From an uncultured Faecalibacterium sp. (lineage in GTDB: Bacteria > Bacillota > Clostridia > Oscillospirales > Ruminococcaceae), in assembly GCA_904394215.1 (NCBI GenBank), contig CAJFNF010000003.1:34267-98266 (forward strand): a stretch of DNA of 64,000 nt. The letters run 5' to 3'. Shown piece by piece: positions 59,978 to 61,234 of the stretch; the stretch's first letter is position 1, and each line of letters begins with the position of its first letter. The notes beneath the pieces are model-generated. The model did no database searches. It worked only from the letters and a program-made list of their open reading frames with translations, and had not been told where the DNA came from. Both the position numbers and the translations under genes were made by a program.

Positions 59978-60280
59978 TCTCGTTTCCTCCTTATACACTG
60001 CATGGGGTCTTTGATCGCGGCCCCGGCGATTGACTACAATTTAATAATAAAGAATTTGGTCCCAAAATAACATGTACTATTGTTGCTGGTTGATGCAAAG
60101 TTGCAGAAAATTTTCATTTCAGGCCAAAAGATAGATTCCACAAAAAAATAGAGGGATTGAAAATTGCTTTTGGAAGCTTCGCTGACCTGGCGGAGCATTG
60201 GACCGGCCTTTGGGGATAAAATCAAAAAAGCTGGTTTTGCCGGGCAAAAAATACGGATATGGAGAAATCCAGCGAAACAA

Positions 60281-60316
60281 AAAACGCCGCAGGGCATAGG
60301 ACGCTGCGGCGTTTTT
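60281..60316 (-). terminator. Intrinsic terminator downstream of the small-protein pair
   Basis: AAAAACGCCGCAG...CTGCGGCGTTTTTTGTTT on the minus strand. Confidence 0.88.
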
Positions 60317-60371: not shown

Positions 60372-60632
60372 TCAGAACTGTTTGAACATATCAAGGATAC
60401 CGCCGGCCAGTTCCTGGCTCAGGCCGATGACGGCACGGACAGCGGTAAACAGCAGGGCGGGGACAAAGGTGAAGGAAATGGCGATCACCGAAGAGCCGCG
60501 GTAGATATCGGTCAGATGCAGGCTCTCGGCAAAGCTGACAAGGGCATCACTGACAGGGCCGCCGCCCTGAATCATACGCTGTTCGGATGAATCAATGGCT
60601 GCATAATGTGCAGGCATACGAAGATTCTGCAT
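60372..60632 (-). CDS. 86-aa putative double-glycine-leader peptide (P1)
   Basis: SD AGGAG 8 nt before ATG; leader RMPAHYAAIDSSEQRMIQGGG then a hydrophobic segment. Confidence 0.75.
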   Translation of the reverse strand: MQNLRMPAHYAAIDSSEQRMIQGGGPVSDALVSFAESLHLTDIYRGSSVIAISFTFVPALLFTAVRAVIGLSQELAGGILDMFKQF

Positions 60633-60694
60633 AAGAAAAACTCCTTTCTAACATAATGCTTGGCAGGCGTGCCCGCCAAAAACAGCTGCCTCAA

Positions 60695-61138
60695 TTAGGC
60701 CGCTGCGGGGACAGGTGTGGTCGTGGAGGCCGCGGCGTCTGCAAAGGCCTCCTGGAACGCCTTGACCAGCGGGTCAATCAGAGCGTTATAGTAGTATACG
60801 GCCTGGCCGACGCCATAGGCGGTACCCAGCGCGGCGGCAAAGCCGAAGGCAACCCACTGGGTAGGGTTCAAAGACGAGAAAAAGTCATTCAGCAGCTTGC
60901 GCCCGGTGGTGGAGGTGGTGCCAATCAGGGCACAGGCCAGCATGGAAACGCCGGAAGAAAACAGAATGCCGCCGAAAAGGGTCAGGCCGTTTACCACAAC
61001 ATTGACGCCGAACTGGAGGACCTGTTCCTTGCTGATATCAAAGAGTGCGCCGCCTTCCAGGTAGACCATTTCATCCTGCGGGACAAGAGCATAGTGCGCA
61101 GGCATGGCAATTGCGCCAGATGAGGTTGTATATTCCAT
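60695..61138 (-). CDS. 147-aa putative double-glycine-leader membrane peptide (P2)
   Basis: SD AGGAG 8 nt before ATG; leader AMPAHYALVPQDEMVYLEGG then two hydrophobic segments. Confidence 0.75.
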   Translation of the reverse strand: MEYTTSSGAIAMPAHYALVPQDEMVYLEGGALFDISKEQVLQFGVNVVVNGLTLFGGILFSSGVSMLACALIGTTSTTGRKLLNDFFSSLNPTQWVAFGFAAALGTAYGVGQAVYYYNALIDPLVKAFQEAFADAAASTTTPVPAAA

Positions 61139-61195: not shown

Positions 61196-61201
61196 ATTAT
61201 A
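61196..61201 (-). promoter_or_regulatory. Candidate -10 element of the P2-P1 transcription unit
   Basis: Perfect TATAAT on the minus strand in AT-rich sequence; the -35 (TTGTTG, 17 bp upstream) is weak. Confidence 0.55.
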
Positions 61202-61234
61202 GCATATTACACAAAAAACAACAAGACATCGCAC

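Follow-up and report, generated by a model that had tools for sequence, protein, structure and literature searches.

A genus-core gene pair of Faecalibacterium that probably encodes two additional cargoes of the MAM transporter

The window analysed here (the whole 64,000-nt stretch of DNA, taken from contig 3 of an 88-contig, 2.4-Mb Faecalibacterium genome) contains two adjacent genes on the minus strand, for the small proteins P2 and P1, which share a double-glycine leader. We propose, with a probability of roughly 0.7 and on the basis of sequence comparisons, that this pair constitutes an unlinked operon of extra cargoes of the MAM transporter, which would be kept in the envelope beside MAM. 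MAM (Microbial Anti-inflammatory Molecule) is a well-known surface protein of the genus with anti-inflammatory activity, and its presumed exporter is a peptidase-containing ABC transporter (PCAT). The locus has the following features:

60695..61138, minus strand: P2 precursor, 147 aa (leader aa 1–30, core aa 31–147), with orthologues in 26 genomes of the genus
60372..60632, minus strand: P1 precursor, 86 aa (leader aa 1–24, core aa 25–86), with orthologues in 26/31 genomes of the genus
61049..61138, minus strand: MAM-type double-glycine leader of P2, ...MPAHYALVPQDEMVYLEGG, from residue conservation in orthologues
60561..60632, minus strand: MAM-type double-glycine leader of P1, ...MPAHYAAIDSSEQRMIQGG, from residue conservation in orthologues
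60698..61048, minus strand: predicted mature core of P2, 117 aa, three helices and two hydrophobic segments, from AlphaFold2, hydropathy and profile similarity
60375..60560, minus strand: predicted mature core of P1, 62 aa, one hydrophobic segment, from alignments and hydropathy
61196..61224, minus strand: probable promoter TTGTTG, 17 nt, TGC-TATAAT (extended −10), read from the sequence
60633..60694, minus strand: gap between P2 and P1, 62 nt, with the Shine-Dalgarno sequence GAAAGGAG ahead of P1
60278..60317, minus strand: intrinsic terminator AACGCCGCAG...CTGCGGCGTTTTTT, 3′ of P1
61499..62974, minus strand: malQ (4-alpha-glucanotransferase, Pfam PF02446), upstream neighbour and locus marker, outside the system

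The presence of a probable promoter before P2, a Shine-Dalgarno sequence for each gene (with a strong AAAGGAG ahead of P2 as well), a short intergenic gap and a terminator after P1 makes it plausible that P2 and P1 form a two-gene operon. The extended −10 element is located 58–63 nt 5′ of P2, and a consensus promoter scan reported no promoter (−35 match of 3/6), despite the good extended −10 visible by eye. The pair sits between malQ and the downstream neighbour galK, with malQ upstream of the pair in 12/16 orthologous loci, several of the remaining loci being truncated. An 87-aa ORF (60034–60297, minus strand) overlaps the terminator, and Rfam and tRNA scans of the complete window gave no matches.

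The leaders of P2 and P1 have 9/19 identical residues in exact register, and the registered double-glycine leader described in the initial annotation is thus real. Relative to the scissile bond, the layout consists of Pro at −18, Tyr at −15, Val or Ile at −12, Glu at −8, Leu or Ile at −4 and the two glycines at −2/−1. The hydrophobic positions claimed previously hold at −12 and −4 for both proteins, whereas position −7 of P1 in the window is a Gln. PCAT substrates generally have leaders ending in GG, GA or GS, with hydrophobic residues at −4, −7, −12 and −15. A degenerate DNA pattern, P..Y(6)E(5)GG, gave seven matches in the 2.4-Mb genome versus 0 for the reversed-pattern control, which places the leader beyond chance; six of these seven were small leader proteins (the pair itself, two members of a trio on contig 53, one by the PCAT and a weaker one on contig 7), and the seventh looks like a chance match. 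Conservation of the leader in homologues, which had been suggested as a check, was evident in the 26 P1 and 26 P2 orthologues, with GG and P(−18) present in 52/52 and E(−8) in 51/52. In P2 orthologues, GG, P(−18), M(−7) and Y(−5) are each found in 26/26 and E(−8) in 25/26, while −15 and −12 are hydrophobic in nearly all and −4 is Leu or Ile in 21 and Thr in 5; in P1 orthologues, GG, E(−8) and P(−18) are each found in 26/26, −15 and −12 are hydrophobic, as is −4 mostly, and −7 is Gln in 18/26. Mean identity was 65% for the P2 leader versus 32% for its core, and 51% versus 44% for P1, with the leader conserved at least as well as the core in 324/325 P2 pairs and 265/325 P1 pairs.

The genome encodes one Peptidase_C39 protein, a 776-aa PCAT located on contig 16, another contig than that of the pair. 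It has C39, ABC_membrane and ABC_tran domains and retains Q8, C14 and H92, which have been named in the MAM PCAT of F. duncaniae (PMC12184118). The PCAT gene is followed by two genes of the MAM leader type (the first, directly downstream, being mam) and then by genes for a 151-aa protein and for one protein each of the HlyD and Big_2 families, and it is preceded by sigma-factor-like genes. As this arrangement is that described by Auger et al. (2022) for the mam locus, with PCAT, HlyD-family and Ig-domain proteins and sporulation genes (PMC8836110), the contig 16 cluster was taken to be the mam locus. The 135-aa product of the gene that follows PCAT in genome G003 (L134) has an N-terminus identical, residue for residue, to the peptide M1–K42 published for MAM of F. 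duncaniae. Since the genes after PCAT carry the same leader as the pair, and the F. duncaniae orthologue of these genes contains the MAM peptide as published, sequence comparison assigns the leader of P2 and P1 to the MAM type. The earlier suggestion of a leader of the C39/PCAT type is well supported, and the export of both proteins that goes with it is favoured, by the single genomic C39 ABC transporter, by the same leader in the genes after it, and by genus-wide co-occurrence. The published leader motif, MMMPANx(8,11)VxGG, matched 19/21 MAM sequences collected here, and 0/26 P2, 0/26 P1 and 0/40 other leader proteins.

The mam copy of the host genome (L008:11682–12023, G000:C16; ...NEMTYV/LMTASNWKTFN) is about 11 codons shorter than its relatives, with an in-frame gap that removes the GG site, and this may reflect either a genuine deletion or an assembly error across two similar genes in tandem. 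The second MAM-like gene, after mam (L008:12060–12440, G000:C16), has the leader MTFPANYAVIAEDELTYVTGG, is also found in related genomes and misses the MMMPAN motif. The 151-aa protein (L008:12785–13240, G000:C16), encoded 3′ of the MAM-like genes and ahead of the HlyD gene, has no Pfam match.

Independent evidence that the leader belongs to the PCAT was provided by other genera, which have the same leader near an orthologous PCAT. Outside Faecalibacterium, a stricter leader pattern was matched in 4 genomes of a 299-genome family sample, with 0 control matches. In the three other genera inspected (L241, L242 and L243), leader genes are located a few kilobases from a PCAT with a C39 domain closely resembling that of Faecalibacterium, and two of the three have an HlyD-family gene nearby, one a Big_2 gene. 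The cargoes are unrelated, and the match of the MAM profile is confined there to the leader. Judged from these loci, the PCAT and the MAM-type leader apparently represent a wider export cassette shared across genera.

Within Faecalibacterium, P1 was detected in 26/31 genomes, with P2 beside it in all 26, and the PCAT was likewise detected in 26/31 (a C39 match in G021 lies in a different, 293-aa frame and was not counted). A C39 transporter is present in 25/26 genomes with P1, in agreement with another check suggested previously. P1 was found in 25/26 genomes with PCAT versus 1/5 without (Fisher 7.7e-4, computed without a tree, while the PCAT-negative genomes may represent one lineage), and in 20/20 versus 0/2 when only near-complete genomes were considered. 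The exceptions, G024 and G025, are both <80% complete, the P1-positive genome without PCAT being 77% complete. Four genomes of the same genus (G019, G020, G021 and G026) lack PCAT, MAM and the pair, with no convincing leader protein among their leader-pattern matches. Shared ancestry may explain part of the co-occurrence of the pair and PCAT. Among the 299 sampled family genomes, none outside the genus yielded P1, and in the named genome collection its closest relatives come exclusively from Faecalibacterium, the nearest being uncultured or poultry-associated species. By these genome comparisons, P2-P1 is classed as a genus-core operon at a single locus.

The core sizes given in the initial annotation (117 aa for P2, 62 aa for P1) and its count of two hydrophobic stretches in P2 and one in P1 were confirmed, with hydropathy placing the segments at aa 54–72 and 96–114 of P2 and aa 47–65 of P1. 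The AlphaFold2 model of P2 (pLDDT 64.7) has helices at 37–71, 76–88 and 92–138, a layout similar to the MAM helices at 37–70, 74–86 and 100–119 (PMC12184118). Comparison of core-only profiles of P2 and MAM by hhalign, with the leaders removed, gave an alignment of 63 columns with a score of 33.9 and a probability of 71.5, versus 17.5 for the best of 200 column-shuffled controls and 13.9 for the reversed control; other pairs of leader-family cores scored ≤18.6, except one pair of clearly related families. The similarity was weak and not significant in plain HMM searches, with a best value of 6.5e-3 versus 0.05 for shuffled sequences. Profile and model together suggest that the P2 core is probably a very distant relative of MAM. 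The core of P2 is 114–131 aa long in orthologues and that of P1 62–97 aa, the latter containing a conserved motif, S[FI][TS]FxPxL[LF]F, in alignments of orthologues. No similarity was detected between the P1 core and P2, MAM or three other leader families. Neither P2 nor P1 had a Pfam or NCBIfam match above cut-off, and a PDB fold search with both models gave no match, to which little weight is given as the models are modest (pLDDT 64.7 and 71.9).

MAM has been described as the most abundant envelope protein, forming a hexameric surface lattice, with export by PCAT proposed and cleavage supported by modelling and by the near-absence of leader peptides (PMC12184118). We suggest that the single PCAT, encoded elsewhere beside mam, recognises the leaders of P2 and P1 in trans, would cut after the GG and would export the mature 117-aa P2 and 62-aa P1, which would most probably remain on the surface or in the membrane and help to build the envelope layer that contains MAM. 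P2 would be a divergent, more hydrophobic paralogue of MAM, and P1 a small, single-segment partner that may interact with P2 and MAM. Some observations count against this scheme. P1 has Gln at −7, a position that is usually hydrophobic in GG leaders, and P2 has two hydrophobic segments, whereas MAM has none by the same hydropathy measure. In other bacteria, PCAT cargoes are mostly bacteriocins or pheromones.

The pair resembles MAM (PMC8836110, PMC12184118) in its leader register (P −18, Y −15, hydrophobic −12, E −8 and GG), its probable use of the same PCAT and its restriction to the genus, and P2 additionally in the remote profile match and helix layout of the core. The pair differs in the absence of matches to the published motif (0/52 for P2 and P1) and in its location, since mam lies near PCAT and a sporulation cluster, whereas the P2-P1 operon is unlinked, between malQ and galK; furthermore, MAM is less hydrophobic than P2, and its core is unrelated to that of P1. 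The leader of RtgG from the pneumococcal rtg locus, with a Pro at −18 and Y/L/M/L at −15/−12/−7/−4, resembles that of P2, and its residues −22 to −18 help to choose the PCAT; the RtgAB PCAT, as is proposed for that of Faecalibacterium, serves several cargoes with one transporter (PMC7018657). The rtg peptides differ in that their genes lie together with those of the PCAT at a locus that is variable and under quorum control, rather than at an unlinked genus-core site.

It is unlikely, in our judgement, that P2 and P1 are a two-peptide, membrane-active, bacteriocin-like pair which uses the shared PCAT and is aimed at other cells. Like class IIb bacteriocins and PF10439 (Bacteriocin_IIc), they are adjacent GG-leader, membrane-seeking proteins with hydrophobic cores; 1/13 P2 members and 4/11 MAM members matched Bacteriocin_IIc weakly, below threshold, and the fast divergence of the P2 cores (0.32 core versus 0.65 leader identity) would also fit such a role. 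Mature class IIb peptides are about 25–50 aa, which is exceeded by the longer and unequal P2 and P1 cores (62–131 aa), no immunity gene is evident on either side of the pair, up to malQ and galK, there are no family matches above cut-off, and the pair occupies one syntenic site throughout the genus instead of an accessory island. A system for cell-cell communication, with one of the two proteins as exported signal and the other as its partner, is more doubtful still: PCATs of other Gram-positives do export pheromones (PMC7018657) and the pair is a core operon, but no sensor or regulator gene is located directly beside the pair, where malQ and galK flank it, and the cores, besides being strongly hydrophobic, greatly exceed known GG pheromones in length. 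The proposal of the initial annotation, a two-component system for antagonism or signalling, was therefore not supported, as it drew on the leader type alone, which is common to many unrelated proteins, while the locus is genus-core and no bacteriocin family matched above cut-off. Least probable is that the two proteins stay unprocessed in the cytosol or membrane, their leader having merely been inherited by duplication, a reading for which leader decay, as may have occurred in the GG-less host mam copy (in-frame gap of about 11 codons), and the lack of a hydrophobic residue at −7 of P1 could be cited, but against which stand the GG kept in 52/52 orthologues and the conservation of leaders relative to cores. 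A role in the envelope beside MAM fits better than antagonism or signalling, given the genus-wide inheritance at a single locus and the long cores.

The leader-PCAT logic was known already, and new with respect to the literature searched are the unlinked, genus-core, two-protein cargo operon and the wider cargo set; the main texts searched, as distinct from supplementary tables, contain no mention of further cargoes of the MAM PCAT. Going by the main text of PMC8836110, its 108-sequence MAM-like set (a PSI-BLAST collection) may include P2. It is possible, and proposed here tentatively, that the PCAT of Faecalibacterium serves as a multi-cargo machine for surface assembly, exporting about 5–8 leader proteins per genome, that P2 and P1 belong to the genus core as structural partners of MAM, and that the MAM lattice is an envelope layer of several components delivered by this C39 transporter. 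Among the candidates for the factor behind the anti-inflammatory effect of Faecalibacterium, MAM is a leading one. Should P2, P1 and further leader proteins use the PCAT as well, its deletion would deprive the cell of several surface proteins and not of MAM alone, the published leader motif would undercount cargoes, and part of the anti-inflammatory or envelope phenotypes may be due to unnamed partners. The multi-cargo idea is directly testable in the published F. duncaniae envelope proteome.

At least three further leader families recur in the genus, together with several single types; two of these families are related to each other, while the remaining cores are unrelated. The leader was also considered as a private signature of the pair, which was ruled out, as many unrelated small proteins carry the same tag. 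The trio on contig 53 (L009:7122–8464, G000:C53) consists of tandem leader proteins with hydrophobic cores, the third having Phe for Tyr, and similar clusters are present in many genomes of the genus. The weaker candidate leader on contig 7, MPSQYVSISEKESAVISGG (L014:1233–1646, G000:C7), precedes a Ser/Thr-rich core which is unlike the others.
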